This document shows, piece after piece, positions 8,601 to 64,000 of a stretch of 64,000 bases of DNA. How positions within the stretch are numbered: position 1 is the first letter of the stretch; every line of letters begins with the position of its first letter. Location: the NCBI GenBank assembly GCA_030272585.1, contig BSYQ01000013.1, forward strand, positions 806,001-870,000, in the 5' to 3' direction. Made by a program: the position numbers and the translations under genes. The DNA comes from Bryopsis sp. KO-2023. Lineage: Eukaryota > Chlorophyta > Ulvophyceae > Bryopsidales > Bryopsidaceae. Under the pieces are notes generated by a model. The model saw only the letters and a list, made by a program, of their open reading frames with translations. It was not told the origin of the DNA and did not search any database.

Positions 8601-9816
8601 CAGCAATTCCTGAAAAAAAAATAAAAAAAAATCAAACATTTTCAATGCAGAAATCTTCTTGAGAGGGTTTAAGGTTCGAAAATACACATATTCAAAAAAT
8701 ATATTTTTCAGTTTTTCAGGATAACGAGATGCAAAATGATAAAACGGAAAACTGAAAAAGCCCCAGCTCCCCCAAGCAACCAAGGAATTCACCCAATGCT
8801 GTGCGGCATGAACTCGATAATAAACAAAAACAAAAACTAGGAATAAAAACAAAAAGTGAAACTATGTCAAAAAACTTGTCGCTTACCCCCCCAGGAACTT
8901 CTGTCGTTTCTTCATTGGTGAATTGTCCAACCACGTTGATATAACTTTCCAGATAACGATTATTATAAACCATGGCCTGCGACAAAACATATAGATGTTG
9001 ATATTCATGCCAACTCGGCGGAAAACCAAAAATTTGGGGAAAAAAATAAAAAATAATTTAATTTGGACCAATTAAAGAAAATAAAAAAATCCTTCCAGCA
9101 TTTTATATTTTTCTTGGGCTCACTTATTTATTTTTCTGGTTTTCTCTCTTTTCCATCCTCTGTTTTTTTTAAATAAATCAGTCCAAAGAAAAACATTTAT
9201 TTTTTTGTAAAAATACATAAACAAAAAAATTAGAAAATGCATATGTTTATTTATTGTTATTTATTGTTATTTAAAAAACTTTTCTGAAACAATGCATCAG
9301 GACTAACCATACTTGATTTCCTCCGACCGATGCCAGGAGATTTTCCAACTCCTTGTCCGTTTGATTAAACGCTAGACATTTCACAGGGCTTTGATGGCTT
9401 TCCTGAAGACTGCCAGAAAATTTAGTCAGTCAGGAAACGGCAAAAAACACTGTGCAAACTCACATATTGAAGAAAAAATTGAGCAACTTCCTGCGATTTA
9501 TTTTAGCTTGCTTCAAAAGTGATTCATTTTTCATGTTTTTGGGAAGCAAATCCACTTGCTGTGTGCATGTATGCTGAGACCAAAAATGTCCAGAGTGTGT
9601 ATGACGTCCCGTTACGAGAAAGGCGTCAGCTCGACTGCAAACGCAGATGGGAAGAAAAGTTATATTATGAACGATACCACGGCGCCGCGCGCTCACCCTG
9701 ACGATGCTCTGCAATTTCAGGTTGCACAGAGCGCGCATCCGGAAGGCGTCATCGCTGCCTTCGCTTGCGACGTCGCGTTCCACGGACTTTGCAAACTTTA
9801 TGGCTGCGCTGTTCAT
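5622..9816 (-). CDS. EED: EED/ESC-like WD40 protein, core subunit of Polycomb repressive complex 2
   Basis: Exons on the minus strand: 9816-9697 (ATG), 9402-9313, 8976-8887, 8609-8541, 8205-8133, 7706-7561, 7088-6920, 6382-6221 and a last exon of about 5990-5622 (TAG at 5624-5622). The first eight are phase-consistent. Conserved blocks follow the order of animal EED and plant FIE: LLASVGGNQ then YLESYINVV (first blade), CCCWMRSDDDIGNPYGDAIL joined to AVSGVDKNITILNL, GHKHPVIEL then LVSLSKEGELRLWN, KIDFGG then VECVLALP, DGAILVWDLRM, and YYSVGCPGN then MIYVFNTWTGA. EED reads H3K27me3 through its propeller and activates the EZH methyltransferase. The acidic Lys/Glu tail after the last blade is extra. 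The junction into the last exon is a problem: no AG acceptor gives the right frame, see findings. A frameshift, sequence error or unrecognised splice site is possible. Confidence 0.75.
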
Positions 9817-11354
9817 GATATTCACCAAAAAGAAACGAGGAAAGTGGCTTCCCCAGACACTTTTCCCTCGTAAAATGAGAACATGCAGTCCATCCCAAAT
9901 AAATCGCAAGAATTGTACAGAAAAGAAGTTTCTGTCATTTCGATAAAAAAAAAGGTTCTGGAAAGTTTATCGGCGGCGGAGCATCTTGTGTGCGTTTTCG
10001 TCTTTCGGGAGAGGGAAATTCGTACGACAGTTTCGACTTCTGTGAGCGTTTTGATGACGACCGGGTAGTAGGAATTCTTTGGTTTGGTATGATCTTTATC
10101 TAGGAAACTTTTGTCGTTGCAATAGAGTCCTGGGCTTCTACGCATGTAATATTGTTTGTTTGTTTGTTTGTTTGTTTGGAAACAAATGTAATTTGATGTT
10201 TGTTTTGTTTTGGAAAAAAATCACAGCATAAATGTTTTGGGAAAACATCCATTCAGAGGGAGTGCATCCATTTGTTTCCATTCCTTTATCTCTTTGTGGA
10301 AATTGCATGTCGATGCAAAAAACACTGTTGAAACACAATTCATTATCATCATAACTCCTTACACACCTTGATCCCTATTCTAGAAATCACACACACAAGA
10401 AACCACATTCGACCCCAAATAACCCCCAACACTTTCATCAACATACCTAAAACTCCTAACACTCTCTCTACGAATCCACTTCCTGTTTTTATCAAAACAA
10501 ACAATTGTAGGCAAACTGCTCCACAAAACATCGACACGTTTTTCTTCTTTTTAATTTATTCCCGACTCGTGACATGCAATAGAGGGAAACAGAAAAAAAA
10601 ACATTTCCCATACAAAAAAGAAAAACACTAGCAGCAATCCAATCATCATCCCCGTACTCCACAATTCACCTCCTCCTCTCTTTTCCATAACTGGAAAAAA
10701 AAAGATCCACTCACATATCTAATTCTTTTTCTTTTTACTCATTTTCTTGTAAAAACCCTTACATTAAATACATATCCCCGCTGCCATCATGATATCACAT
10801 CATCAATTTTTTTTATCATATTGTTTTTTTTGAAAAGAGAATAATCAGTCTCTTTTTCCCCACTACTTCACTGCTACTTCAAATTAAAAGCACAACAAAA
10901 AACCTACTGTCGATATTTTACAGAAAACGAAAGTAGCTCTTTTTTTGCTGTTTTTTTTTGATTAATTTTTAAGTACTCGACATCATTCCAGATCCCACTG
11001 TAATCACAGACCCAATTCAGGTTTCCTTCATATCACAAGTCCCCATGTGTGGTTTGCCCAATCAAACTCCCCTGCTCCTAATTCCCAAATCGAAAGCCTA
11101 TACTCTAAAGCAAAAGACCTCCACATCATTGTATCCATCAATCGCAATGCACACATGATAAAAAAAAGCACACCGAAGAAATAAATATTCATCATAAAAC
11201 AAGTCCATGGCCATAATTGTGTGTGTGTGTGGATTCCCCCTCTCCCTTTAAAAACACCAGGCATTATTTTTCATCCATGCAAGAAAAAAAAAAAGAAAGG
11301 AACAGGCTCGAGCGAAACTTGGGATCGCGAGGTTGGCGCGCGCGCCAAACACGT
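9817..11354. other. Gene-free spacer with TTTG microsatellite
   Basis: This is the 5' flank of EED and 3' flank of the repeat-protein gene. It holds a (TTTG)n run near 10,150-10,178 and AT-rich DNA. No gene is seen. Confidence 0.5.
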
Positions 11355-12179
11355 TTAGCGGTCAGTCAAATCATCGAAGAATTGCAATGTCTGGTCTTCT
11401 TCCTTGGCGGCGGCGGATGCGTCTTCTGGCATTGGCGCGACAGCCATCAGCTTCCTACCGCTGTCGAGATCGTCGAGGTCGCCCACCAGCTCCTCAGCGG
11501 CGGGGGCTGCAGCGAGGAGTTTCCTGTGATTCATCGAGGTAAAAGACATCAGCTTCCTGCGGGATCCCAGGTCGTCGATATCCTCCGCGGAAGCGGAAGG
11601 CATCTCGACAACCGGTGCAGCTGCCAGCAATTTTCTTCGGTTTCCCAGATCATCAACGTCCGTCTGTTCCATGGGCGACGATTCGCTCATTGGAGGCGCG
11701 CTCATCAAGCGCCTTCGGTTGCCAAGATCATCGACGTCCGTCTGTTCCATGGACGCAGGTTCGCTCATTGGAGTGGCAGCCAGCAATTTCCTTCGGTTTC
11801 CAAGATCATCAACGTCTGTCTGTTCCATGGGCGACGATTCGCTCATTGGAGCGGCAGCCAGCAATTTCCTTCGGTTTCCAAGGTCATCAACGTCGCTTTC
11901 TGTAGAGGAGGTAGACTCGCTCATTGGAGGTGCGCTCATCAGCCGCCTGCGATTGCCAAGATCGTCGACGTCGCGCTCTTCCGTAGTCATAGATTCGCTC
12001 GTGGGAGGCGCACTCAGCAGCCTTCTTTTGTTCCCCAGATCATCAACGTCCGCCACTTGCACTGCAGGCGCTTCAGCGGCTGGCGCGGGAGCCAGGACGC
12101 CGCCACCAGCTGTTTCACCCGCCGCCGCCGCCGCAGATATAGTGGCCGCAATGACAAGAAGGACGAACTGAGACTTCAT
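11355..12179 (-). CDS. Secreted tandem-repeat protein, candidate peptide precursor
   Basis: A single open frame of 274 aa starts at the ATG at 12179. An earlier in-frame codon exists, but this Met is followed directly by a signal peptide (KSQFVLLVIAATISAAAAA, likely cut before GETAGG). After a short Ala/Pro linker come six perfect-length 26-residue units starting DVDDLGN (residues about 44-199), then three degenerate units. Each unit has an acidic head (DVDDLGN), a basic triplet (KRR, RRR or RRK), a hydrophobic pair (LL or LM) and a Ser/Ala/Pro/Met tail such as SAPPMSES. The basic triplets are potential prohormone-convertase/Kex2-type sites. No Cys repeat or globular domain is seen. This could be a processed multi-peptide precursor or an extracellular matrix repeat protein. 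The family is unknown to me. Confidence 0.7.
   Translation of the reverse strand: MKSQFVLLVIAATISAAAAAGETAGGGVLAPAPAAEAPAVQVADVDDLGNKRRLLSAPPTSESMTTEERDVDDLGNRRRLMSAPPMSESTSSTESDVDDLGNRRKLLAAAPMSESSPMEQTDVDDLGNRRKLLAATPMSEPASMEQTDVDDLGNRRRLMSAPPMSESSPMEQTDVDDLGNRRKLLAAAPVVEMPSASAEDIDDLGSRRKLMSFTSMNHRKLLAAAPAAEELVGDLDDLDSGRKLMAVAPMPEDASAAAKEEDQTLQFFDDLTDR
11583..12050 (-). repeat. Six 78-bp tandem coding repeats
   Basis: Six consecutive 78-bp units encode the 26-residue repeats. On the plus strand each carries a recurring block close to CAGATCATCAACGTC. Units 3-5 are most alike, sharing the ...PMEQT tail. This implies recent unequal crossing-over or gene conversion within the array. Confidence 0.85.
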
Positions 12180-12650
12180 GGTGATTTCAATCTGCAAAAC
12201 AAACTCCGCATTGGTCAGCACAGCCTTCAATACACCACCGATCAATTTAGCAGCAGGCAGAATATGGAGCCAGCGAGCTAGGGTGCGCTACCTGAATCAC
12301 GAGAAAAAACGATAATAAAGCGATCACCCAGCGCTTGGGAGAAGGTTGTGCGCAGAGTAGTTTTTTTTTTTCGATGCAGAGCAGAGAATAGCAATTTCAA
12401 ATACGATTTCGAAATGCGGAGTTTGGGATTTTATGGACTGTGCGCCCAGACAGCCAGTAAAATCAATCGTTTCAGGAATGACACCCCCAATGTTTTGCCA
12501 CATCAAATCAAACCATTATTACACACGAAAAAGGCACCCAAAAATTGCAAAACAATGATGATGATGGATATCCAGGATCAGATCAGACCATGCATTGCTA
12601 ATCGATGTCTGCATTCTCACATGTTGTTGTTTTCACACCAGGACCTCTGA

Positions 12651-47516: not shown

Positions 47517-48633
47517 ATGATAAATGTTTTGTGAAAAAAGAATCAAAACGTTTTAAAGCGTAGAACATGTAAACTCTGTTTCGGAATGGGGCTGAAAAAA
47601 TTGGGTGTTGCACTATGGGAAAACCCGCTCTGTGCGGGGTTGGTCGAATCTCCGCCAAATATCGAAGAACGTCGAACTGACGAATTAAGACCCGAAACAG
47701 AACAGAAACGTATCAGGAACGGTCGGATGTACCTGGGTTCGACTCCCAGGCGTTCCAATCCCCTTAAAACTGGGGTCGCGAAAAAGTCGTCAGCGACTGG
47801 AATTCGCGACCCCGCACAGATGTATGTGCGGGGTTATAAACACCGCACAGGAGATCAACGCCGCACAGAGCCCTGTGCGGGGTGACCGTAAAACGAGGGA
47901 ATTATCTTAAAACAAAAACACACACAAGTGCCCACAGTCCCCGAATCCCAAGCAACCCATCTGTTCATCCAAACCCACAAGGTTTAATAGCCCAAACACC
48001 ATCCACACAATGTACCCCGCACAGAAGTCCACAACCCCCGCCCACACAGCCACATGACCCGCACAAACACCGCGAAGAAAAAGAAGGAAGATCTTTTGAC
48101 TCTTTCACTTGCTCTTTCGAGCAGTTTTCGGGGTTTTGGGGGAAATTCATTCAAAAAAACACACACACAGTTGTGCCCCAGTCTCCGAATCCCAAGCAAC
48201 TCATCCGTTCATCGAAACCCGCAAGGTTTAATAACCCACAATATCATCAGAAAAAACTATAAGAGCACGCACGTTAGTCGGAATAAAAACAGGCCGCAGA
48301 GGGCTGTGTGCGGCGTTCCGACTCCGCACGATACGCATTCATAACAATACCAAACAGGAAAACCCAGTCCCCGAAGCTGAAAAAAACCTTGACGTTCATC
48401 CAAATCGATCAACTTCGGCTAATCTTGCCATGTCGAACCAAAAATGCCACACAAAAAACATCAGGAAAACAACCACCACCGCACAGAAACCTCAACAGCC
48501 ACGCACATGAACCCATATACCCCGCACAGACCTACTTTTTTCGGAACGAGCGACGTTTTGGTGACGGCGAACGTTCCTCCTCGGCCACAAAACAACAGCC
48601 CCGCACACAGGCGCGTAAACCCCGCACCGCCGT
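47517..48633. other. Left flank of the motif-rich element region
   Basis: No gene is seen. It holds the first CTGTGCGGGG/CCCCGCACAG copies (47,624 onward), a tRNA-3'-half-like hairpin (47,716-47,756) and two diverged copies of an approximately 85-bp direct repeat (about 47,916-47,995 and 48,154-48,239). It could be the terminal or subterminal part of the mobile element whose genes follow. Confidence 0.45.
47716..47756 (+). other. tRNA-3'-half-like minihelix with perfect B box
   Basis: GGAACG at 47716 can pair with CGTTCC at 47751. Inside, CCTGGG and CCCAGG close a 7-nt TTCGACT loop, the form of a T arm. The stretch GGTTCGACTCC fits the pol III B-box consensus. The D and anticodon arms are missing. 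Confidence 0.55.
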
Positions 48634-51393
48634 TTACTTCTTGCGCGACGACCTGCGTTTTTTTGGTGAATCCTCCTTCGCCTTCTTGGACCTCCGCGTT
48701 TTCTCGGCCTTTTCCAGAGCCTTCTGCCTGATGGACTTCTTCCCACTATCGTACAACCGATCCCTGTCCCTCTTTTTTTTGGGCGGTTCATCCTCCCCCG
48801 CACTTGACTCGTAGTCGGGTTCGGGCTCGGCATCGTCGCCAATGTCCTGTGCGGGGTCCATGGGATCCTGTGCGGGGCTGTCGTGATCGTCACCAGCGCC
48901 GCACTCTGTGACCGAATCCTCCAGAACTGGTGCTGGAAGACCGTGAAGCGCTGCCTCCGCGCTCTCGGAGAAAGGGCCGCCGGAGGTACCGGAGGCACCG
49001 GAGGGACCACCGGTGTCATGACTTCCGGATACCTCTCCTAAGCCGCACACACTAGTTTTAGCCCCGCACACACACATAGAAACCCCGCACACCAGAACAT
49101 GAACAAACAGGTTACAAACACTGACTTTTTTGAACCACGCACAGAAGTCCTCCGACCCCGCACGAAACAGGAAAAAACATGTGTCGACAACCAATCAATC
49201 CCTCACCTGGATCCAGTGGAGGCGGCTGCAGTACACGGGGAATGGTGGGCTCCCTTGGCTGCTTCCCACGGGCGATCTCCTCCGGGGTCTCCTCCTCGGG
49301 TGGTGGTTGACAAACCTGCGCGCACACGAGAAATCAGTTAGCGCACGAAGTATCATAAACCCCGCACAGAAGACCTACCACCCCGCACAGAGACCGAAAC
49401 AGCAACACTTGACCAAACACGCACAGACACAATCGAGGCCCGCACAGAACAATTCATAACAGCCACGCACATAAACGTCCCAACCCCGCACAGCGACATT
49501 TGAGACACGCACATCAAGTCTTGCACTCACCATGGAATCTTGGAGCAGCGTTCCCGTCTCCGCGAACCTACGCCTCATCGCCTTCACCTCGTCCACCCAC
49601 GCTACCTCGGTCGTGTACCACTCGTCGTTCGGGACGAGGGTGGCGCGCAGGTGGACGGTGTCTTGTATTTTCTCGGTGCGGGTGGCGTTTTCAGTCTCGA
49701 GGGCGTCGATTCGCTTTTTATGCTGCTTGATGTTGCGCCTGCTATCCTGCACCCTACAGCCCCGCACACACCGGGGTTAGACCCGCACACACACACACGA
49801 ACCCCGCACACACACAACACCCCGCACACAGATAAAACCCCCACAGCCCCGCACACACGCGTATACACCCCGCACAGAACAGGAAAAGGGCGCTTACCTG
49901 TCGACCACTCGTTGGCAGAGCGTGCGGTACCCGATGACGAATCCCATGCGGCCCCCAACCACGCCTTCTTGATTCTGGGCGTGGAAGAGGATTCGGAAGA
50001 TCGCCGCCCCCATCATATCAATAAGGCGTGGGCGAGTGGTTGGCGAGACCACATTTCCTCCGACCTGCCCACCACGCACACACAATGATTAACCCCGCAC
50101 ACACTAACATTACCCCCTCCCCAACACCCAAACACCGCACACACACACAACAACCCCCCGCACACACACAACCGAACCCCGCACACACGTACTGCAACCC
50201 CGCACAGCTTATAGTTCTCTGTTTTTTACTCACCGTTATCCCGTCAGGCATATTTTGCCTTGACGCGAGCATCCTCATCGGGTTGCGGAGCGTCGGAACG
50301 ATTTCCTGAGCCCAGTATTGGTTGATCAGCTGTTATACAAACACACATGAGGAAAAAAGTTAATTAACCAACCAGTACCCCCGCACGAAGGTCGTGGAGC
50401 CCCGCACAGACGTTACTTAGCAAAACATTTGAGGAAGGGGTGCATATAATTTTGTGCACCGCACCTGACCTTGAGGACCCCGCACAGGACTTGCCTTACC
50501 TTGTTTAGCCACCCAAACTCTTTTTCGTTCTTGTAGCGGCGCCTGGTTTTCCCGTCCTTCACCACCTTCACTATGAGCCTCGTGTCGAGTCTGCCCGTGA
50601 TGCTCTCTGCCTGGGTACTCTTGATAGATGGCAAACGAGCAGGCGTGGGAGTCGCCATAGCGACGAGCATCTCCTTCGCCGCCTCGACGACAGCCTGTAC
50701 ACCGCACAAAGGCGTCACCACCCCGCACCACAATGTTTCAACCACGCACAGAGACACAAAAAACATAAAACACGCAACACCGCACACAACAGCACCGCAG
50801 ATGAGAACATCCACCCCGCACACTCACCATATCGATGGGCTCTACCACTGCATAGCCAATGGATTCCACCACGTGCAGGTAGCTCTCCATATTTTGGATG
50901 GTGGAAACGAGGGCTTCGTCGATGACATTGAATATGGGCTTGTTTATCGTCTTCGTCGACCAGAAGTGTATTTTTCTGCCTGTGAAAGTCTGAAAAAAAA
51001 GACAACATAGAATTTAGAGACAACCCCGCACACGGTCCCTGTGGCCCCGCACAAATCGAGAAGGAATTCCTCATACCCCCGCACAACAATCCGTGAAGCC
51101 CGCACGGAGATATGGACACCCCGCACAAAAACCCTGTACCCCGCACAGCGTAAAACGTTTACCACACAGATCACAAGTTGTTAAACCGAGCCGCCTTTGC
51201 GAATAACAGTCGTCTTCGTGGAACCAGATTTTTTCCTCACCGCAATAAGAGCCGACGCCGTAAAAGGCCTCAGTTCGCCGTACTCCTCGAGGATCTCGCG
51301 CTCCCTGCCCTCGTTGTCGCCAGTCATTTTGTTAAGCACTTCCTCAAGTGCTCCGATCTCGTTAAGGGTAAGCACAAGAAAGAAAACAATCAT
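48634..51393 (-). CDS. Unknown 520-aa protein, divergent partner of the transposase
   Basis: Eight phase-perfect exons: 51393-51187, 50989-50828, 50694-50500, 50329-50234, 50064-49898, 49753-49531, 49315-49207 and 49037-48634, summing to 1,563 nt. The start codon at 51393 is the least certain part. Features: a helical N-terminus (EEVLNKMTGDNEGREREILE), a compact middle (GRKIHFWSTKTINKPIFNVI and RLIDMMGAAIFRILFHAQNQ), a coiled coil (NIKQHKKRIDALETENATR), a Pro/Glu linker, and an acidic then very basic tail (PPKKKRDRDRL ... KKRRSSRKK). The last exon encodes DSPAQDPMDPAQD from two copies of CCCCGCACAG-like sequence. All seven introns are loaded with the complementary motif. It could be the element's accessory DNA-binding protein, by analogy with TnpA of CACTA elements. 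Confidence 0.7.
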
Positions 51394-51587
51394 TTTTGCA
51401 AAACGATAGAAAGGTAGACCGCACACACTGAGTTCACCAGGGTTCTCGAGCTCGATTGCCCCGCATGAAGCGCCAGGGGTGGGTTACATTATTTATAAAC
51501 TAATTAGTGTGACTTGCGTAATGTGGACTGCTTTAGTTTCTGTCCCATTCCGTCTCACCTGTTGTTTCCTTGCCGTTAGCGTTAAAG
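51394..51587. promoter_or_regulatory. Shared divergent promoter of the two element genes
   Basis: About 195 bp separate the two start codons. It contains an AT-rich TTATTTATAAAC block near 51,490 and one motif-like copy (CCCCGCATGAAG) near 51,461. Confidence 0.4.
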
Positions 51588-52052
51588 ATGCCCAAGCGCG
51601 TGGGCTACACCGCCTTGAAGAGATACCTGCAAACTGAAGACCCCTGCTGCCCAGCATGTGGACAGCGAATCGGCAGCGACACTTCCTGGAAGAGACATAA
51701 GCGCGACGGTGGAACTTGCCCGAACAAGGATCGCCTTGAAAGGGAGCTGCTCGAGATCGCTGCAGGTTAGTCATAACCTTGGAAATATGTTTTTTTCGCT
51801 TCCTTTCCACACCTGACGCGCGTGCGGTGTCCCGACAGCGCGTGACGGCGGCACAGACCCGGCACAGAACCAGGTGGACCCCGCACAGAACACGGTGGAC
51901 CCCACAGGAACATCCGTGGTGCCCGTACAGATTGCGGTGGACCCCGCAGGACCATCCGTGGTGCACGCACAGGATGGGGATGCGCCTCTTTTCGAAGACG
52001 GCTTTGCTGATGACATTCCTGATGATGTTGCTGATGAACATGTTGAGGAGGG

Positions 52053-52062
52053 GGATGAAGAG

Positions 52063-52097
<35 letters not shown>

Positions 52098-52098
52098 G

Positions 52099-52133
<35 letters not shown>

Positions 52134-52138
52134 GGAGG
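52053..52138 (+). repeat. GAG/GAA tract encoding poly-Glu
   Basis: Purine-only GAG/GAA tract in transposase exon 2, encoding an uninterrupted acidic run. Confidence 0.9.
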
Positions 52139-52826
52139 ACGGGGAGGAGGAGTTTGACGTACAGGGAAACGCCGCCCTCAGGCAGCCCCTGTACGCCACA
52201 TGCAGCATGTCCCTGGTCCAGGTACGTGTGCGACGCATTGTGACTTCTGTGCGGGGTTGATTGACAGCCCCGCACAGAGAACCTGGGACCCCTTCACAGG
52301 CAACCAGAAACCCCGCACAGAAGTCATTTTACCTTTTTCCCTTCTCATTGCTCTTCTAACCCTTCTAACCTTCTGTTTCAGGTGATGTTGGTCCTTTGGC
52401 ATTTGAAAGTCCAATCGGGGATGACACGGGAGACATTCGAGACCCTGCTGAGGTTGATGGCCGCGGTACTTCCGAAGCCCAACTCCTTACCGACGACTTT
52501 CGCATCGTTCAAGGGGATGATGAAGGTGCGCCACCTGAAGAAGCAGACTTACCTGATGTGTCAGAAGGGTTGCCGAGCCTACAAGGAGAACAGGTGAGAG
52601 GATACTCTGTGCGGCGTGAAAGCATCCCTGTGCGGGGCACTATGGTCCCTGTGCGGGGTCAAGCTGGAAAGTAGTCAAATGTGTTTGTGGGCTAGGAGTC
52701 CTCTGTGCGGGGTAAACGAAGCCCTGTGCGGGGTATATTGGCTGTTGTGCCGGGTCAGGCTGCAGCAGGAAAATAACAAAGAAAAAAAGGATAAAAAAGT
52801 GAACCCACAGAGTTCAGAGCGTAAGG

Positions 52827-52854
52827 GGACTCGAACCCACCACCAACTAAGCTA
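52827..52854 (-). other. tRNA-derived unit with A and B boxes almost fused
   Basis: On the minus strand TAGCTTAGTTGG (perfect A box, 52854-52843) is followed after only 5 nt by GGTTCGAGTCC (perfect B box, 52837-52827). The anticodon-arm region is missing. Confidence 0.6.
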
Positions 52855-52988
52855 CAGTCATGCATTCTAACAACGCGGACCAGGCGAACACGATATCTTT
52901 CAATCTAAACGCTCCCTAATCCCCTTTAGCGTTATAACTTATGGGATAAGTCACAAACACTCAGCACACACACAAATTGTGCTCTGGG

Positions 52989-53052
52989 GGAATCGAACCC
53001 TCGACCACACCGCCTAAGGTTATTCACCTTATCGGTGGAGCACCCTAAGCCA
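52989..53052 (-). other. tRNA-derived SINE-like unit
   Basis: The minus strand has an A-box-like TGGCTTAGGGTG (53052-53041) and a perfect B box GGTTCGATTCC (52999-52989), about 41 nt apart. Confidence 0.6.
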
Positions 53053-53158
53053 CGATACTTCACCGATGTTAAGTTATTTTGTAACACTGTTAAATTTTAA
53101 TTTTACGGAATTGCTAAAAGATTAAGGCATATGATTGCAACACCCAAGATTCTAACGC

Positions 53159-53232
53159 GTTCCGCTTGGCTTAGTGCTTAGCGTAGTATGTCTTGACACC
53201 GTGTGGGACGGTGTTCGAATCCTACTCTGTTC
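53159..53232 (+). other. tRNA-derived SINE-like unit
   Basis: The plus strand has TGGCTTAGTGC (53167-53177) and a B-box-like GTGTTCGAATCC (53211-53222). Confidence 0.5.
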
Positions 53233-53311
53233 CCTTGGGTTTGGTTTTGTCTTCGTACATGAGATGTGTGGAACCCGTTTTAACCTGTTTTAACCCACAC
53301 TAAACCATCGT

Positions 53312-53380
53312 GGTGCGGTGGCTTAGAGTATTAGAGTGTATGGTTATAGTCTTAGAGGTTGTATGTTCGAATCTTAATAG
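53312..53380 (+). other. tRNA-derived SINE-like unit
   Basis: The plus strand has TGGCTTAG (53319-53326) and a B-box-like TGTTCGAATCTT (53364-53375). Confidence 0.45.
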
Positions 53381-53783
53381 GTTCTCACGAGTTTAGGGTT
53401 AGAATTGTGTGCCATTGCAACGGTTTTCCGTGATCTGATCGGGGATCGGAACAGTCGGTCTCCGGTGTCGGATCCCTAGTATGGAAAGAGTTGCCATATT
53501 GAATTCTTTGTTGTTCTTAATCGATGTTACTCTTCAGGACCACCGCCACTCCCCAGAGCGTTTGCGACTGTGGCCTTCCTTTGTTCCATCTCTCCGGGAC
53601 CGTCCTCACGCCGGTGAGAAGGATCTTCTACTTCGGCGTGAAGTCCGTCCTTCGCATCATGCATGGTAGCTATGCATTTTGCGAGGCGAGGATTCACGCC
53701 GCGATGAGATCCTTCTCGGTGAAGTCCACCCCTGTCATGCAGATATTGGGAGATTTGCTTCCCGACGGGGTGGATCTTCAGGA

Positions 53784-54304
53784 TGATACCAGCTGCTGAC
53801 GTCCAGGGACGTCAGACGTCAAAGGCGTCATGCATCTGACGTCTGTGAAGCGTCAGATGCATCCCCGGTAGATGACAGCATTCCCCTGAGGAGATACTAC
53901 TGAACTACAGCGAGGAAACCACCGCAAGAGCACCTGGTCAAGACAGTGGTTCGATCAACTAAAGTGAGACTCGCGAGGTGGAGGTCTCGGGTTTGAATCT
54001 GAGTGGGAACGTGCTTTAGTCTGGGCTTGTGTGTGAGTGTGTGAGTGAGTCAGGAGTAGAACTGGCGGCTGTGAGTCAGGGTAGTGGGAGTGTTACGGCT
54101 GGTTAGTCACCCTCGGGAAAGTCGAACGGGAGTTAAAAGAATGGGACGCTTGATGTAACCTTGCTTGTCAGTAATTCTGTGAGTGCAACTGTGGACCCCG
54201 TGTGCGACTCGATTCGATTTTGTGTGACCCTGTGGAACTCAGCCGCCACCCTCTCTCACTCTTTACACGGAAGTGCGTCGGCGTACGGAGCGCCTCGCGT
54301 AACA
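53784..54304 (+). repeat. 5' LTR (521 bp)
   Basis: Same length as the 3' LTR. The visible difference is C versus G in TTACG(C/G)GGTTAG-type context near 54,086. The first 60 bp hold four GACGTC palindromes. Confidence 0.97.
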
Positions 54305-54308
54305 TTTT

Positions 54309-54392
54309 TGGTTTCGGAGCTCGGACTCGAACTCTGGCGGCGAAAGTCAACTCAGGAAGCGTTAGTGCACTAAGCCACTGACGTGCAAGGTA
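54309..54392 (-). other. Primer-binding site within an extended tRNA-like sequence
   Basis: TGGTTTCGGAGCTCGGACTC begins 5 nt after the LTR, so its complement ends CCA, as expected for a tRNA 3' end. On the minus strand a B-box-like GAGTTCGAGTCCG (54334-54322) and an A-box-like TGGCTTAGTGC (54377-54367) follow with tRNA-like spacing. The similarity therefore extends well beyond an 18-nt site. Confidence 0.7.
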
Positions 54393-54718
54393 TATCGGCG
54401 GACGGTTATACGCCTGGTCGCTAGTTATACACTGAGGGGACTTTTACTAGTTCTGTCGGAAAAACAAACACACCCGCGAAAAGGTTCGCACGAAAAAGAG
54501 GGTGTCCGACAGCAGTTTGTGTGGTACCCAGAAACAGACGACAGGAAAAAGGTTATCCTGTAACTGTCGTTGTGTGGCGGGGAGGCCACAAAACTGGTAG
54601 CTTAGTCGCTGGGAGTTTGTCGTTAAACGTTTGGACGTAAAGGCAGTGAGGGAAAAGTCAACAGTCTACTGTTGACAGTAACTGTCGGAAAGTCAACTGA
54701 AAGTCAGAGGCACACAGT
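54393..54718 (+). other. Retrotransposon 5' leader
   Basis: Untranslated leader between the primer-binding site and gag. It is CG-containing and no ORF of note is seen. Confidence 0.6.
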
Positions 54719-56992
54719 ATGGCGTTAATACCAAGTGGATCAGGAAGCCAGATGGTGGCTTTTGAAGACTCCACTATGGACGAGTCTGCTATGCAGGTTG
54801 TTCACAACACGCAGAACATTCAGATAAACCGGACGGAGTCTGGTTCTGAAGGAGGAGGTCAGCTGCAAGCTCAGCTTGCAGTCTGGCGCGAAACAGTAGC
54901 AACGGACTTGAAAAGTTCCTTCCAAACTGTTCATACAGACATGGAAAAAGCCATAGTGGCTGTCGACCAAAAGACGGAGCAAAATATTCAAGGTCTCCGT
55001 GAGTTCGTTCATCGAACTCAAGAAAGTCAGCAAAGGGTCGAAACTGAAGTCAACGACCTCCAGGTCGTTCTGCGACAGAATGTCGAGTCGACGACAGAAA
55101 AGCTAGCACAGCTTACAGACCATCTACAGTCAATGAAGCAGTCATTTGTGACTGATGTGCAAGAGCAACTGAGTACACATTATGCACAGTTGAGAGAAGA
55201 AATCCTGGAAACAGGAAAATCTCATGCACAGAGTATTGCATATCTGAAAGATCAGATGCAACAGGAACAGGGGCTGTTCCAGCAATCTCATCAGACTGTA
55301 CAGAATAAGCAGATGCAAGACTTGTTTTCCGAACTGCAGACAATTAAGGGACAAGTGCAGAAGGAAGAACAAATGCATCAGGAACAAGGAATGTTCCAGC
55401 AAACTTATCAGAAACAAATGCAAGATTTGTATTCTGAATTGCAAGCAGTGAAAGGACAAGTCCAAAAAGAGGAACAAACAGCCCTTGTACTAGTGGAAAG
55501 AGAAAGAGAAGCTAGACAGAAAGAAGAGCTATCTCTTAAGCACACAATGGATAGAATGCTGAAGGAGTATGTACAGGCATCAGTTGTGCCTACACAACCA
55601 CTGGAAGTCCCAGTGTATATGATGCAAACAGTCACAGAAGGACTGAGTACAGAGGGACAAGAAGAACAGGAAATTCAACCTACTTCAGCAGCAGAGCTGG
55701 TGCTACCACCAGTTACTAATGGAGCACCTGCAACTGTGGGGTTACTACCACCCACTCCAGCAGTTCCATTACCCCCAGGACCTTCTTCTTTGGGTCTTAT
55801 AGACCTAACCACAGGACAATCACTTCCAATGGGATCACCAATCCCCACATTGTCCCTGTCACCAGCCACTGTAGTTCCACCAGCTACATTTACAGTGGGC
55901 ACTACCCCAGCACCATCAGGCATGGGAATCAGACCACCAAACCCCTTTGAGCAATTAACAAGTCAAAGAGCACCTAGTGGTGGTGCACCTGGAGGAAATC
56001 CAGGGGATCCAAATGGATCAAATGGCCCAAATGGACCAGACAGGCCAAACATGCCTAGAGCATCTGGATCTGGATTTCCAGGGCCAGGAAATGGTGGAGG
56101 TGGTGGTGGAGGTGGTGATGGAGGACCCCCAGGAGGAGGACCACCTGATAGAGATCCTAGTGGCACATCAGGAGGTTCAGGACAAGGTCCTGATAGACCT
56201 TACAGCAAACAGATTAAGCTCACTCCCCCAGAGAAATTTACAGGAGATGAAAGGATATCTGCAACAGAATGGATACTAGGAATGAAGAGATGGTTGCAGA
56301 ATCAACACATCTTAGAGAGAGACTGGTTATCCTGTTTTCAGTCACATCTCCAGGGAGATGCACTTAGCTGGTTAAACCTGATGGATATACAGATCATGAA
56401 TCAGGAAAAAGCAGAGTATGCTAGCTGGCAAGAGTTCACTCAAGAACTAAGGAATGTTTTTGAGCCAGTCTCCCTAATAGAGACTGCCAGAAAACAGTTA
56501 AGAACTCTAAGGCAGACTGGAACTGCCTTAGGCTACATCAGGCTCTTCAGAAAGCTGATGTTTAGACTCCCCAACCTACCTCAAGAAGAAAGATATGCAG
56601 CTTTTGTGGATGGGCTCTCAGATAGAAATATGCAAGCACAGGTTATGACCCTGTGTGATGGGGATCTGGATAAGGCCATCCTCACAGTTCAAAGACTCTC
56701 TGCAACTATAGGCAGTAGAGGTGGCACTACTAGCAGCTTTAGAGGCAGAGGTAGAGGGAGGGGAAGATTTGGACAAAGGAATACACAGATGTCAGCAGTG
56801 ATAGCTGCTGCAACACCACAACTACCTCTTGCAGCAAACTCAGTTAAAGCTGTGCAACAGAGAGGTCAGATGGGATCTAGACCCTCAAGGGGAGGATCCT
56901 TTAAGTGTTTTCTATGTGGAAGCACAGAGCATGGGGTGAGACAGTGTCCCAAACTGTCCCAAGCTCAGAAAGCCCTGAAGAAGGGAAACTAA
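54719..56992 (+). CDS. gag: Gag polyprotein
   Basis: 757 aa from ATG 54719 to TAA 56990. The N-terminal third is a long Gln/Glu-rich coiled coil (residues about 50-280), with an internal duplication of about 35-38 residues (units around QEQGLFQQSHQ and QEQGMFQQTYQ, each ending KGQVQKEEQ). A Pro/Gly-rich linker follows. The capsid-like retrotransposon gag domain has ATEWILGMKRWLQNQHI, LQGDALSWLNLM and RLPNLPQEERYAAFVDGL. An Arg/Gly-rich stretch precedes one CCHC zinc knuckle, CFLCGSTEHGVRQCPK (C-x2-C-x4-H-x4-C). Gag assembles particles and packages RNA. The stop codon is preceded directly by a slippery heptamer that leads into pol. Confidence 0.93.
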   Translation: MALIPSGSGSQMVAFEDSTMDESAMQVVHNTQNIQINRTESGSEGGGQLQAQLAVWRETVATDLKSSFQTVHTDMEKAIVAVDQKTEQNIQGLREFVHRTQESQQRVETEVNDLQVVLRQNVESTTEKLAQLTDHLQSMKQSFVTDVQEQLSTHYAQLREEILETGKSHAQSIAYLKDQMQQEQGLFQQSHQTVQNKQMQDLFSELQTIKGQVQKEEQMHQEQGMFQQTYQKQMQDLYSELQAVKGQVQKEEQTALVLVEREREARQKEELSLKHTMDRMLKEYVQASVVPTQPLEVPVYMMQTVTEGLSTEGQEEQEIQPTSAAELVLPPVTNGAPATVGLLPPTPAVPLPPGPSSLGLIDLTTGQSLPMGSPIPTLSLSPATVVPPATFTVGTTPAPSGMGIRPPNPFEQLTSQRAPSGGAPGGNPGDPNGSNGPNGPDRPNMPRASGSGFPGPGNGGGGGGGGDGGPPGGGPPDRDPSGTSGGSGQGPDRPYSKQIKLTPPEKFTGDERISATEWILGMKRWLQNQHILERDWLSCFQSHLQGDALSWLNLMDIQIMNQEKAEYASWQEFTQELRNVFEPVSLIETARKQLRTLRQTGTALGYIRLFRKLMFRLPNLPQEERYAAFVDGLSDRNMQAQVMTLCDGDLDKAILTVQRLSATIGSRGGTTSSFRGRGRGRGRFGQRNTQMSAVIAAATPQLPLAANSVKAVQQRGQMGSRPSRGGSFKCFLCGSTEHGVRQCPKLSQAQKALKKGN
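56983..56989 (+). promoter_or_regulatory. Putative -1 ribosomal frameshift site (GGGAAAC)
   Basis: G-GGA-AAC in the gag frame is a classical X-XXY-YYZ slippery heptamer, placed immediately before the gag stop TAA (56990). Pol lies in the -1 frame and stays open through this point. Confidence 0.75.
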
Positions 56993-59900
56993 AAGAGGAG
57001 GCTAGTGTTGGGTCAGCTAAGCCTCCTGATGATATTGAAATTAAAGAACCCACTACAAAAACACCAGCCTCACTAAATGATGGTGTTCAAGAGACACCTG
57101 TGGTTGCAGCCCCTATTGCAACAGAACAGGAAGCAAACACACTGGATGGGGTCACTCCAGAAGTGTTAATTCAAAAGAAAAAGCAGTCTCAAAAGAGAGT
57201 GGATAAACAAACAGAGGCCACTGTGAGTTTACCCACTAGAGTGGAAGGAAATGTTGAGGGAAAGGAACCAGTTCAAACTGCAGTAGCTCAGGCTACAGCA
57301 GCATATAGAGGATATGAACTGGCAGGATTTATTGGTGCAAAGAAAGCTACAGCATACATTGATACAGGATCCACTGCTAATTATATTAGCATGGATGCAG
57401 TCAAGGAACTGGGACTGCAATACAAACCACAAGAAACTCCTGTTAAGTTTCTAGATGGTACAGAAAGGAAATCAGTGGGGAGATGTTTTGGCATCCCATT
57501 TGTCTGTGGAAAGATTCAGCTTTCATTTGATGCTGATGTCTTTCCAGACAGTAATCACCCAATCCTGCTGGGATTGCCCTGGCTCATACACTACAATCCC
57601 AAAGTGGATTTTAAGTCAGGAATAATCACAGTAAACAAGGGCAGAAAGAGTGTAAAATTACCACTCTCAGTGATGCCTGAATATCAACTCAAGCCCACTG
57701 GAGCTACAGAACTTTCCTTTTGTTCTAGTGGCAGAATCAAAAGACAGATAGAAAAAGGGGAAATCAAACACATCATCATGGTGGTGATTAGGCCAGAGGA
57801 TGAATCAAAGACTGGAGTAGAAACAATCCCAGAACAAAGGGAAGGGGATGATCTACAGAAAATCCTGCAGGAGGATATGGATCCCAAGATTAAGGAAGTA
57901 CTGACTCAGTACAGAAAAGTATTTGCAAAAGATTTGCCTAAAGGTGTACCTCCTACCAGGCTGGGTCATGAATTCAGGATTGATCTGGAGGAGGGTACTG
58001 AACCCATGTACAGGCCACTGTATAAACTGTCTCCTCTTGAGTTAGATGAGGTTAAAAGACAGTTAGATTACCTTTTGGAGATGGATTTCATTGAACCATC
58101 ACAATCACCATTTGGGGCACCTATTCTGTTTGTCCCTAAGAAAGATGGAGGGCTCAGAATGTGCTTAGATTACAGATGGCTGAATAAAAAAACAATTAAA
58201 AACAGATACCCTCTGCCCTTACCAGAGGAGATGATTGACAGGGTGCATGGGGCAAAATACTTCACAAAGATAGACTTGAGATCAGGCTACTGGCAGATGC
58301 CTCTAAGGGAAGAGGACAGGCCTAAGACTGCCTTCAGGAGCAGATTTGGACACTACCAGTTCAAAGTACTCTCCTTTGGACTTACTAATGCTCCAGCACA
58401 ATACATGAACATGGTTAATGATATCTTCAAGGATATGCTGGATATCTTTGTGCTGATCTTCATTGATGATCTCTTAATCTATTCTAAGAGCATCTCTGAG
58501 CATGTAGAGCATCTAGCAGCAGTCTTAGCCAGGCTACAGAAGTATAGTCTATTTGCAAAGGCCACTAAAAGTGAAATCTGTGTGAGGGAAACAGATTTCT
58601 GTGGATTTTGGTTGAGTGAAAAAGGGATCTCAGCAATGGATGTGAAGGTTAAGGCAATCAGGGATTGGAAGCCCTTAAAAACAGTTACTGATGTCAGGAG
58701 TTTTCTGGGGATGGTATCCTTCTATAGAAGATTTATTCCTGATTTTGCAAAGATAGCAGGCCCCCTGCATGACTTAACTAAGAAGGATGTCATGTGGGAG
58801 TGGGGATCTGCTCAGGAAATAGCCTTCCAAACACTGAAAACTGCATTGATGGGGAAACCAGTGCTGATCCATCCTAATCCAGTAAAGGATTACACTGTGA
58901 TTAGTGATGCATCTGGGGAAGCAACTGGAGGAGTTCTCTGTCAGGATCATGGCTCTGGATTACAGCCCATAGCCTTTTGCAGTAGAAGATTATCAAAATC
59001 AGAACAAAATTACTCAGTGTATGAAAGGGAACTCCTGGGAATAGCCTACTGCTTGATGCAGTGGAGGCACTACTTAGAAGGCTGCCCAGGAGAAGTCACA
59101 GTCTTTACAGACCACCAGCCACTAACAAATTTTATGGATCAAAAGATGATGTCAAGACCCCAAGCCAGGTGGCTCAGGGCAGGACATTTCCTCAGCATCA
59201 AACCAAAAATTCAGTACATCCAAGGGAAACTGAATCTGGTTGCTGATGCACTATCAAGAAGCTTACCAGCAGAGAATCAAGTGAATGTAGTGAGCTCCTT
59301 ACAACCTAGTGTGGAGGAGATTACACTCTGGGAGCAAGCAACACTGGCAGATGTTGAAATCAAAGACATCTACAATCAAATACTGGATGGGGAAAGAATT
59401 CCAGGATATGGAATCAATGAATCAGGGTTGTTGATTTATCAAACTCAGGATGGACTTATGAAATTATGGGTTCCTCAGGAACTGAGAATGAAAGTCCTTA
59501 CTGAAGGACATGATAATCAGATCTCTGGACATCTGGGGATAGAGAGAACTCTGGAGCTGATGTCCAGGAAATACTACTGGAATAATATGAAAAAGGATGT
59601 CCAGGAATATGTTAGGACATGTGAGGTTTGCCAGCAAATGAAACCTGAGTTGAGGGCTCAGAAGGGATTGCTGCAACCTATTCCAGTAGCTGATAAGAAA
59701 TGGAGTCAGATCACTACTGATTTAGTGACTGATTTACCCCCTGTTGATGGATTTGATTCCATTGCAGTATTTGTTGATAGATTGACTAAGATGGTGAAGT
59801 TCATACCCTGCAGCAAAACAATAGATGCACCAGGGTATGCAAGAATATTCTTTGATCACATCTTTAGGAATCATGGGATTCCCAGTGTGATAATCAGTGA

Positions 59901-60774
59901 TAGGGACACTAGATTTACAAGCAAATTTTGGCAGGAGTTAATGAAGTGTGTGGGCACTAAAGTGAGGATGTCCACAGCCTTCCATCCTCAAACTGATGGA
60001 CAGAGTGAAGTCAGTATCAGAACCTTAGAGAATTTCCTCAGACCCTATGTTGAGGATCATCCAGAGACATGGATGCAAGGCTTGGGGATGGCTGAATTTG
60101 CAGCCAACAATGCTGTACACACTGCTACAGGGTACAGTCCCTTTTACTTGATGTATGGAGTGCATCCCCAGTTACCAGGGGATCTACTGGCTGGAAAAGC
60201 TCAAGCAGAAGCAGAGTCAGTACAAGAGATGATATCTCATATGCAGGAAGTCATCAATGATGCCAAAGACAGATATAAAACAGCCCAAGAGAAGATGAGG
60301 CAGCAAGCAAATAAAAGGAGAAGAGATGTACAGTTTCAAGTGGGAGAAAAGGTGTTGCTCTCCACAAAGACATTGAATTTATCAGTCTTGAAACATATTC
60401 CAGTGAAAATCAGAAGAAGGTATATAGGGCCTTTTGTTATTGCTGCTGCAGTGGGATCTGTGGCATATAGATTGGTGTTACCAGATGGATGGAAATTACA
60501 TCCTGTATTTCATGTATCAAAGTTAAGAAAACTTCAAGAAAGTGCTAAGTTTCCTAGGGAGGTAATGGCACCTCCAGCAGAATTAGATTCTGAGGGAGAA
60601 GAGGAATTTGAAGTTGAGGCTGTAGTAAGACATAAATTTTCAGGAAGGAAAAGAAGATTTTTAGTAGTCTGGAAGGGGTATCCACTTAGTGAAGCAACAT
60701 GGGAACCCCAAGACAATTTATTGAATGCATCAGAGATCCTGGCTGATTATAAGAGGAGAGCTGGGATCAGGTAG
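56984..60774 (+). CDS. pol: Pol polyprotein: protease, RT, RNase H, integrase, chromodomain
   Basis: The frame is open from 56905 to TAG 60772. Expression is probably by -1 frameshifting at 56983-56989, giving a Gag-Pol fusion. Domains in order: aspartic protease (AYIDTGSTANYISM, DTG active site), reverse transcriptase (FVPKKDGGLRMCLDYRWLNK, catalytic FIDDLLIYSK), RNase H (VISDASGEATGGVLC and FTDHQPLTNFM), integrase zinc domain (HLGIERTLELMSRKYYWNNM, CEVCQQMKP), integrase core (ITTDLVTDLPP, SVIISDRDTRFTSKFW, HPQTDGQSEVSIRTLEN), and a C-terminal chromodomain (EEFEVEAVVRHKF, FLVVWKGYPLSEATWEPQDN). All catalytic residues that I can locate are present. All Arg codons I checked are AGA/AGG, in line with the lack of CG. 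Confidence 0.95.
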
Positions 60775-61012
60775 AAGTTAGATGCACTTTTGATTCTGTG
60801 GCTGAAGGATCAGGAATCCCAGTGACTAGGGGATGGGTTGCATAAGGGCAGTGAAGTGTTTTCTGAACTTCTGTGGGTTAAGGATTTTATGGGGATCTAA
60901 TTATCCTTTCAGAAGTGCAGGGAGCTTGGGATTTGCATCACCCTAGTTCAGAGTTACTTTTACAGAATCAGAAGGATGCATTTGATGGATACTTGGTGAG
61001 GGCACCAACTGC

Positions 61013-61030
61013 CCCCAGGGGGGAGGCAAT
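61013..61030 (+). other. Polypurine tract
   Basis: AGGGGGGAGGCAAT directly precedes the 3' LTR, in the place of the plus-strand primer. Confidence 0.7.
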
Positions 61031-61551
61031 TGATACCAGCTGCTGACGTCCAGGGACGTCAGACGTCAAAGGCGTCATGCATCTGACGTCTGTGAAGCGT
61101 CAGATGCATCCCCGGTAGATGACAGCATTCCCCTGAGGAGATACTACTGAACTACAGCGAGGAAACCACCGCAAGAGCACCTGGTCAAGACAGTGGTTCG
61201 ATCAACTAAAGTGAGACTCGCGAGGTGGAGGTCTCGGGTTTGAATCTGAGTGGGAACGTGCTTTAGTCTGGGCTTGTGTGTGAGTGTGTGAGTGAGTCAG
61301 GAGTAGAACTGGCGGCTGTGAGTCAGGGTAGTGGGAGTGTTACGGGTGGTTAGTCACCCTCGGGAAAGTCGAACGGGAGTTAAAAGAATGGGACGCTTGA
61401 TGTAACCTTGCTTGTCAGTAATTCTGTGAGTGCAACTGTGGACCCCGTGTGCGACTCGATTCGATTTTGTGTGACCCTGTGGAACTCAGCCGCCACCCTC
61501 TCTCACTCTTTACACGGAAGTGCGTCGGCGTACGGAGCGCCTCGCGTAACA
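61031..61551 (+). repeat. 3' LTR (521 bp)
   Basis: Starts TGATACCAGC and ends GTAACA, matching the 5' LTR. It is followed directly by the second CAGGA copy at 61552-61556 and the rest of transposase exon 4. Confidence 0.97.
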
Positions 61552-64000
61552 CAGGATATCACCACCGGCCTCTATGAGGTCGGTGGTGACTATTTCGGCC
61601 TGGGGACAGGGAGGCGCCGCAATTACTCGATCGGCGCCTTCTTTATCAGATGTGGTGAGCTGATATATATGTATATATTGGTTGTTTCTCGTTCCTATTG
61701 AGGTGATTGATGTGAAAAAACAATGGTGTACTGAAAGTTTTAACGTGTGTTCGAATTTTTTCAGACGACCTCCATGACTCCGTCCGGATGCAGGTGGAGA
61801 ACCACTACCCCATTGCCCTCATCCCCGGTCCAAAGGAGCCCGAGAGCTTACAGGGAGTCCTGCGGTTGATTGTGCAGGACTTCCTGAAGCTCATACCTGG
61901 TGGGCCGGGGATGAGGTTGAGGGGATGGTCGCCCCCCGCCACCGGATCCGTTGGACCCTTGACGCGTTCTGACAGTGTGGAGCACTGGGCGTTGCTGTCC
62001 AGTGTGACCGGTGATACTCCTTGGCTTGCGAAAGTCGAGTTAGCACGCGGTCACACTGGACGCAACGCCTGTCCTGACTGTCATGGGACTACGAGCGTCG
62101 TCACCACTCGCTCCGGGGTCACTACTCACAGGTGTGAAGATACGTGATGTTGATCCAGTTGCCTTGGTGAACCTGATACACAGTTACGTGGAAACTGACG
62201 TGTTCGTCATTCATGTAGGTACATGGGGTATCTTGCGCCAACCAGGCGTTCCGAGGAGGACATGAGCGAGCTTCTGACACTCCGGTCGGGGCAGGTGTGT
62301 CCTTGTTGTCCTTGTTTTTATTATTGTTTTTGCGACTTCTTCGTTATTCTCTCTTCTTTGCATAAAGTGATCTCATGTTTTTTTTTAAGTCAGGAATTTC
62401 TCGGTAATTTGATCCTATTTGGTGTTTTTATAGGACCCCAACTGGACGCCCATCGATCGTGACACGCACAGGACACGTGAGGAGTATCTGCACTTTGCAG
62501 CGCTCGCGGACACGTCTGCCTTGGACCCCGTCGCTGCGCATGTCCGCGGACGATCGGTTCTCCACGACCTTCCGTACTTCGCACCGGAAGTACTGAAGGT
62601 CGTGGGGGCCTCTCATTTGATGCTCTTTGGCCTCGTCAAAGACTTCTTATACGAGGTATGTGTGTTTCTCTTGCTTATGTTTGATATATATTATGAATGC
62701 AAAAGGCTATTAATTGTGTTGTTGAAACCACAGTTTTTATAGAGTAAAGTTGTTCCCCACTCACTTCCTAAATACACAAACTCAAACTCGACTAACATCC
62801 CTCAGCCAAGCGGCGCTTTGACTTGCGCGATCCACATGTGTGACTAAACCGCCCCATCCGATCCCAATGGGTTTTACAGTGTGTATCGATAGTAACATAT
62901 GTGTGATTGCCAAGATCCGGAGCCGTCTCCTTGGAGCTTCGCGGCGTGCAGACCTTGCCCAGTACCGGAGGGCACTTGCCGGCGTTCGACTCCCGACAGA
63001 CTTTGGGGGTCTGGTGATCGACATCTGTGCTGACAGGAAACAGCACACGATGTACGATTACGCGTTGCTGGTTCGGTGAGTTAATTCTTCAATAAGAAAG
63101 CAAAATGTGTCTGAAACGAAACAGGAATACCAAAGGTCTCACTTTCATGTACGCTGTACGTGTAGGAGTTATGGGGCTTTCGTGTTCCATTCCTGCCTGC
63201 ATAGAGACGAGTTCGTGGCGTGGGACCAGCTCTGCACTGCCGCCACCCACTATACCTCCCACCGAGCCATGGCTGGAGCTACCATGGATGACTGCATCGA
63301 GAGAGGCCGTGTGATTCGGGACACGATGTACCAGTATGCTCGGTGAGCGACGTTGTGCGGGTGAAAACATTGGCGATTTCGTTTACTGTCATGAGGTTTT
63401 CCTTGTTCTTTCGATTGCGACAATACAAAGGCGACGATTATTCAGTGAACAATATTCACGTCTTAATTTTCACGTTTACAGGAACGTCCAAACCCTTTTT
63501 GGGGCGGGGATGTGTACCTTTAACCTGCACAAAATCATTTGTGTGGGTTATCGGCAAGAGAGCGTACGTGGGGCGATTTCACGTTCGGGGGAGTCGTGGG
63601 TCGAGCGAGCGGTTGGACACATCAAGCGTGTTTCCGCGGGACGTGTCAAGAGATGTGCGGGAGAAATGATTGCAAACGATGTTCTCTCCGACATGTGAGA
63701 ACTACAGCCAAGTCTCCAACACTTTCGTATGCTCAAACTAAGAGAACCCAAGAAAAGCAGATAAACATGTTTGTACTATTCCTTTCTTTATGTTTTCAAA
63801 GTGTTGAACGATTCGATTTGTGGTTTTAAAGGGCGTTGAGGGCAAACGCAAACATGCTTTCGCAAGACGAGCAAAGTGTGGTGGACGCTATCATTACTCC
63901 CCCGCCGAGGAAGCCGTTGGACACCATCACCACCCTGGAGTACACGTTTTCCTTCCTCCCTCGACCTGTATCGGCATCGGACATTCGGACATTCGTGGAC

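Follow-up and report, generated by a model that had tools for sequence, protein, structure and literature searches.

A short motif densely repeated in the introns of a Bryopsis transposon with CACTA-type ends, and its probable role as a DNA-binding site

The locus and its carrier transposon

The window considered here, i.e. the whole stretch of 64 kb that was analysed (C13:806001-870000), belongs to the genome of the green alga Bryopsis sp. KO-2023 (Ulvophyceae, Bryopsidales; 91.1 Mb, 28 contigs) and contains a transposon with two divergent genes, a leftward one for an accessory protein and a rightward one for the transposase (Table 1). This element carries a nine-letter tag in dozens of copies, mostly within the introns of its genes. 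The exact 8-mer GTGCGGGG occurs 44 times in 47611-52760, compared with a mean of 0.4 and a maximum of 3 in 300 dinucleotide shuffles of this interval counted on both strands, and TGTGCGGGG is found there 39 times. The preliminary description of the stretch had given about 60 copies, a figure that fits the core GTGCGG, of which the left arm has 64, and is too high for the longer forms (CTGTGCGGGG 23, GTGCGGGG 44). From the remainder of the window the 8-mer is absent, with no copy in the host DNA (1-47610) and none in the long terminal repeat (LTR) retrotransposon at 53785-61551, which we take to be of Gypsy type.

A DNA transposon with CACTA-type ends carries the array. The sequence at 47611 is CACTATGGGAAAACCCGCTCTGTGCGGGGT, and the 18-bp start of this terminus, CACTATGGGAAAACCCGC, is present in the genome in 71 exact copies and 2 with one mismatch; flanks are distinct in 28 of the 30 copies fetched, the exceptions being L012 and L014 with a common flank. 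Because the terminus start recurs genome-wide with differing flanks, the motif, whose first copy lies in the left terminal repeat, is part of the transposon terminus. The right terminus of the window element lies at the window-equivalent position 68980 (C13:874980). As in CACTA (En/Spm) elements, the imperfect terminal inverted repeats start with CACTA (left CACTATGGGAAAACCCGC, right CACTATGGGAAGTCGCG or CACTATAGGAAATCGCGC), subterminal short repeats occur in direct and inverted orientation, and all three copies with both ends read are flanked by a 3-bp target-site duplication: TTG in the window element, CAT in an uninterrupted copy of 13,432 bp (copy F, C2:155043-168474) and TAA on both sides of a family B element of 4,694 bp. 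A profile search for PF02992 (tnp2/TnpD), which distant homology could escape, left the transposase pieces, the composite and the annotated proteins all without a match up to an E of 10, and its genome matches comprise two places on C12 and a weak one on C1, none of them corresponding to the present copies. KDZ (PF18758) yielded five genome matches, all away from the present copies, and none in the proteins. Since PF02992 went undetected by profile search, we speak of CACTA-type ends and not of firm superfamily membership.

The product of the leftward gene, put at 520 amino acids in the preliminary description, measures 502 by our gene model, and all seven introns are of the GT-AG type. The open frame and all seven intron positions are kept in each of the five modelled copies, one of which encodes a protein of 43% identity (below, the 43%-identical copy), and because of this conservation the seven intervals are, on comparative evidence, real introns of a gene under selection; the ratio of nonsynonymous to synonymous divergence (dN/dS) was 0.28-0.37 in four pairs of copies. 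The annotated relatives of the transposase are BSKO_08195 and BSKO_04839. Its gene continues in copy F over ten exons, separated by nine introns that measure 65-247 bp; where exon 8 starts is uncertain, the annotated P0001 and P0002 follow other splice patterns near exons 7-8 and at the end of exon 11, and the 8-mer is absent there regardless.

Table 1. Features of the transposon and its motif array in the window (positions are those of the window)
Feature	Position	Strand	Basis or content
Transposon with CACTA-type ends, left terminus to window end	47611..64000	+	target-site duplication TTG on both sides
Left terminal repeat, holds first motif copy	47611..47639	+	begins with CACTATGGGAAAACCCGC
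Left motif array	47611..52760	.	44 GTGCGGGG (10 +, 34 -)
Accessory gene, 8 exons, 502 aa	48634..51393	-	gene model
Accessory intron 1	50990..51240	-	5 sense, 0 antisense GTGCGGGG
Accessory intron 2	50695..50827	-	2 sense, 0 antisense GTGCGGGG
Accessory intron 3	50330..50499	-	3 sense, 0 antisense GTGCGGGG
Accessory intron 4	50065..50233	-	4 sense, 0 antisense GTGCGGGG
Accessory intron 5	49754..49897	-	5 sense, 0 antisense GTGCGGGG
Accessory intron 6	49316..49530	-	3 sense, 0 antisense GTGCGGGG
Accessory intron 7	49038..49206	-	3 sense, 0 antisense GTGCGGGG
Two exon-8 motif copies, antisense to accessory gene, exactly 21 bp apart	48849..48877	+	code PAQ...PAQ; gene model
Transposase exons 1-4	51588-51765, 51839-52221, 52382-52593, 53538-53784	+	gene resumes at 61552 past the retrotransposon
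Transposase intron 2, the exception	52222..52381	+	one sense, two antisense 8-mers
Start of transposase intron 3	52594..52744	+	4 sense copies, as two 21-bp pairs
LTR retrotransposon inside transposase gene	53785..61551	+	gag- and pol-like frames; no motif
Transposon middle, transposase exons and introns	61552..64000	+	no GTGCGGGG

Distribution, orientation and spacing of the motif

In the window element the motif is restricted to the terminus and to stretches of 5.1 kb at the left and 1.3 kb at the right end. Outside introns, 8-mers number 3 on the plus and 5 on the minus strand in the left flank and 8 and 27, respectively, in the right arm, whose density (22 per kb) may be set against that of the accessory introns (20 per kb). 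The element middle (61552-67400, 5,849 bp) contains no 8-mer and two GTGCGG cores, and the nine later transposase introns of copy F together contain no GTGCGGGG and one GTGCGG core. Because the 8-mer is missing from both, motif density follows the element ends and not introns as such.

All seven introns of the leftward gene harbour the motif, just as the preliminary description had stated, and without exception in sense orientation: 8-mers were counted at 25:0 (sense:antisense) in the window and at 26:0, 23:0, 24:0 and 9:0 in the other four copies, so that no antisense copy exists among 107 in five related elements. The same holds for the GTGCGG core, which even the 43%-identical copy carries in sense orientation throughout its accessory introns. 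The further claims, that the transposase introns and the flanks are filled likewise and that orientation flips with transcription, stand in part. Introns 2 and 3 and the flanks do contain the 8-mer, intron 1 has a single GTGCGG core instead, and five of the seven 8-mers are sense; as introns 1-3 hold 0:0, 1:2 and 4:0, the flip rests on two introns. Intron 2 had rightly been singled out as the exception, and 52249-52275 within it is a canonical inverted pair, GTGCGGGG-N11-CCCCGCAC. In intron 3 (944 bp) all four 8-mers lie in the first 151 bp and the remaining ~790 bp have none. Introns 2 and 3 of the transposase hold 5:1 and 4:0 in copy F and 1:0 and 7:0 in the 43%-identical copy (GTGCGG there 2:1 and 10:0).

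In exons, three of the four 8-mers of the window element are antisense (two antisense and one sense in the accessory gene, one antisense in transposase exon 2), and the accessory exons of the other four copies contain 2:1, 1:1, 2:1 and 1:0 (antisense:sense). Read in frame, the antisense exon copies give (D)PAQ, or DPAQ, DAAQ or AAQ where they stand in the 43%-identical copy. Taking the GTGCGG core, orientation is 150:0 in the accessory introns of five copies versus 164:67 (majority:minority) in nine stretches without gene model, which are four flanks or right arms of this family, two stretches of family B, two of family D and L038; because the copies are related, the Fisher p of 6e-17 for this comparison is descriptive only. 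One of these stretches, the left flank of the 43%-identical copy, is a local tandem array and almost one-sided itself (19:1). The lack of antisense copies in accessory introns suggests some transcript-level constraint.

The spacing of the copies is equally peculiar. Neighbouring sense GTGCGG cores within introns are exactly 21 bp apart in 17 of 31 cases (permutation mean 0.58, maximum 5 in 5,000) and neighbouring 8-mers in 9 of 21 (mean 0.37, maximum 4). Since the spacers of the 17 pairs are on average 31% identical, compared to 26% after shuffling, most of these pairs are not recent duplicates. Genome-wide, 387 of 1,304 same-strand 8-mer pairs with spacings of 13-42 are at 21 by the program's own pair count, the backwards control of this search returning 0, and among inverted pairs with spacers of 5-34 bp, which lie mostly in the arms, 176 of 265 have exactly N11. 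The 21-bp step is kept in accessory exon 8, despite the RNA reading the opposite strand there, and in the 43%-identical copy three antisense GTGCGG cores follow one another at 21 bp in the last exon (DPAQ...DAAQ). Outside introns the step is frequent in two of the nine stretches, the right arm of the window element (15) and L038 (9), and rare in the other seven.

Comparison between copies separates the motif from its surroundings. In aligned introns, motif-core columns versus other columns are identical at 165/175 versus 719/1,006 (window and copy F), 168/175 versus 802/1,006 (window and L076), 163/168 versus 714/983 (L076 and F) and 172/175 versus 949/1,006 (window and copy E). The motif is thus ~94% identical between copies, and the profile of conservation indicates a footprint of about nine bases (offset -1 to +7). 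The intron background differs at 244 of 963 aligned bases; since this divergence approximates the synonymous distance (dS 0.29), the background appears to evolve neutrally, in contrast to the conserved motif.

Some further observations concern the transposase gene and its relatives. The motif-free part of intron 3 (52800-53540, and L075:1070-1520) contains tRNA-like stretches, as judged by eye, and in the 43%-identical copy a unit of ~140 bp is repeated several times in this part. In copy F, ~2.8 kb (9568-12400, L072+L073) separate the stop codon of the transposase from the right array, a stretch that lies partly inside the annotated BSKO_08195. A distant transposase family (that of BSKO_04839; P0003, 30% identity) has no intron array of a different motif at the two loci read, L077 and L078; its exon 2 contains a coding repeat, ACAACGATG(G), in several copies 21 bp apart (L077:1500-1900, L078:7170-7520), which occupies the place of the DPAQ repeats of the present family. 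L001-L007, read in stretches of 3 kb, represent another family with the terminus CACTATAGGAAAAAGCGC; in L005 (e.g. L005:1290-3024) GTGCGG cores alternate in orientation within 52-bp units. The retrotransposon has a gag-like (54719-56992) and a pol-like frame (56905-60774), and the two L068-copy matches around it overlap by 6 bp, as expected of a target duplication. Elsewhere in the window, a leftward frame at 11355-12245 contains tandem DVDDLGNRRKLLAAAPMSESSPMEQT-like units (a 78-bp DNA repeat).

Binding sites, splicing signals or drift

The array is well above chance and with good probability functional at the DNA level. The repeats are probably helically spaced DNA-binding sites, at which a protein encoded by the element itself would be bound to TGTGCGGGG. 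A binding factor of this kind had been named in the preliminary description as one option, and it fits best the presence of the motif in the terminus and both arms, the 21-bp spacing and the fixed inverted pairs. The binder would most likely be the 502-residue leftward product, a conserved protein in which a coiled-coil-like stretch and a basic C-terminus can be discerned by eye and which is therefore the natural candidate. With sites two helical turns (21 bp) apart, several molecules could be lined up along a single face of the double helix over the element ends, presumably in cooperation, and the bound array might serve the synapsis of the ends and transposition, keep the element unsilenced, or both. 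As the left array overlaps two divergent genes, the sites would gather in introns, because coding does not forbid them there. Their direction within introns, and only there, may be set by a constraint from splicing or at the transcript level: antisense CCCCGCACAG resembles a 3' splice acceptor and would be purged from introns, its (D)PAQ codons making it tolerable in exons. If sense G-runs favoured splicing, the identical orientation lock would result, and splicing may be a side role of the motif.

Several results weigh against the binding-site explanation. The supposed binder has neither a detectable DNA-binding domain nor a relative: it matched no Pfam family at E up to 1, PF03004 included (searched with a version of 480 residues without the first 22), found no relative at E up to 0.001 among 5.8 billion proteins (7,994 best word-sharing candidates scored), and its best match in PDB had an E of 0.22. 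The contrast in orientation is weaker inside the window element alone (33:0 versus 53:12, Fisher p 0.007), and the counts across related copies are not independent. AG dinucleotides are depleted in the accessory introns (22, versus 52 by shuffle), a depletion too unspecific to demonstrate avoidance of acceptors, because the control GA is nearly as rare (28). Of 21-bp steps outside introns, copy F has one in its right arm, family B 2 (right arm) and 0 (left flank), the window element 1 in its left flank, L005 and L001 of family D 2 and 3, and the flank of the 43%-identical copy 0; the introns of the latter mix spacings of 21 (11) and 22 (6), and its transposase exon 2 shows 48-bp steps. Tandem duplication of a 21-bp unit could produce the spacing without any cooperation, and the motif-anchored alignment may inflate the footprint.

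The explanation originally proposed first was that the sense G-runs (UGUGCGGGG) act as intronic splicing enhancers; in this view they would help to define short introns with weak pyrimidine tracts, selection on splicing keeping their number and orientation. Such a function would account for the 107 of 107 sense copies in accessory introns and for the strong G-richness of the sense strand (skew 0.33-0.39), and by eye several accessory acceptors do have weak pyrimidine tracts, the transposase intron with two antisense copies having a long one. The motif is, however, not confined to transcribed introns, being found in the terminal repeat, the left flank, the exons and a right arm that is equally dense, and neither exact 21-bp spacing nor inverted N11 pairs are expected of RNA enhancers. 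We therefore consider this explanation unlikely; enhancement of splicing as the main role was rejected on account of the nine introns of the same transposase gene that lack the 8-mer, and the array is not evidence for a new splicing code. Neutral drift of a functionless 21-bp satellite, spread within the element and oriented in each intron as its founder copy happened to be, would agree with the plain tandem duplications that do occur (in intron 1 of copy F, as 34/45-bp units and as the 52-bp units of L005). It appears very unlikely in view of motif bases that are conserved amid spacers evolving at the synonymous rate, of the dissimilarity of the 17 intron-pair spacers already described, and of a GTGCGG core that stays sense in every accessory intron even where the protein is 43% identical. 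One might also imagine an R-loop array, in which G clusters, situated in both genes on the non-template strand, would favour hybrids of RNA and DNA and thereby hinder methylation of the element's DNA; the transcript strand of the accessory introns is indeed rich in G, in transposase introns 2-3 the motif likewise mostly has its G-rich side on the transcript strand, and each motif includes a CpG. Yet orientations are mixed outside introns, most right-arm copies are antisense to the transposase, and a fixed spacing of 21 bp would be unnecessary, which makes this the kind of proposal to which we attach hardly any probability.

Going one step beyond binding by an element-encoded protein, one can tentatively envisage, by analogy to the Arabidopsis element VANDAL21 and its protein VANC21 and as a doubtful rather than an expected outcome, an independently evolved VANC-like system for anti-silencing or synapsis, in which an orphan protein coats its own genes via helically phased intronic sites and splicing shapes their orientation, leaving the acceptor-like form very rare in intron transcripts. 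Were this true, the packing of an element's own recognition sites into its introns would not be peculiar to one Arabidopsis family and would extend to other transposon types and green lineages. The array would further provide a clean natural case of one short site serving DNA binding, coding and splicing together, with orientation as the readable outcome, and the 21-bp step along with the orphan accessory protein would permit a direct and simple binding test.

Comparison with known systems

The preliminary description knew of no described system of this kind, which does not hold: according to the parts of the source consulted, VANDAL21 has same-orientation intronic arrays bound by a transposon-encoded protein (PMC5735166). 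No such array in Bryopsis or another green alga came up in the literature, as judged from titles and the openings of abstracts among the matches listed.

VANDAL elements are a Mutator-like family, and intronic splicing enhancers of the G-run type are G-rich and act in sense orientation in short introns. The Bryopsis motif shares with these enhancers its G-richness and its sense orientation in short introns; unlike them, it is often helically spaced, is plentiful outside introns and does not occur in nine introns of the transposase gene. In the consulted parts of two papers, VANDAL21 of Arabidopsis is described with dense same-orientation arrays of YAGTATTAY in introns, intergenic and terminal noncoding parts, arrays which gain and lose tandem repeats, and VANC21 as a transposon-encoded protein that binds them and removes methylation (PMC5735166, PMC10398659). 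The Bryopsis element likewise has dense arrays of a short motif in introns and other noncoding parts, with one orientation throughout its accessory introns, but differs in its 21-bp phasing, inverted N11 pairs and exon copies, of which those parts make no mention for VANDAL21. VANC21 and the Bryopsis accessory protein, the latter without database relatives, are compared by layout only.

En/Spm and other plant CACTA elements, as far as the portions consulted describe them, have subterminal repeats in both direct and inverted orientation, to which TnpA binds (PMC2613891, PMC8195511), a protein of the family PF03004 (PMC8195511). To the extent covered by these portions, the Bryopsis element resembles them in its CACTA termini, 3-bp target-site duplication, direct and inverted subterminal repeats, and in combining a transposase with a multi-exon second gene, and departs from them in a left array of ~5 kb that overlaps the whole accessory gene and in the divergent arrangement of its two genes; its transposase, moreover, has no PF02992 match and its accessory protein no Pfam match. 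By analogy, then, the layout of the Bryopsis element resembles both the VANDAL21/VANC21 and the CACTA/TnpA systems, and what sets it apart from these, as they appear in the parts of the literature consulted, is a 5-kb left array that swallows a gene, an exact step of 21 bp, and one-sided introns next to reversed coding copies.

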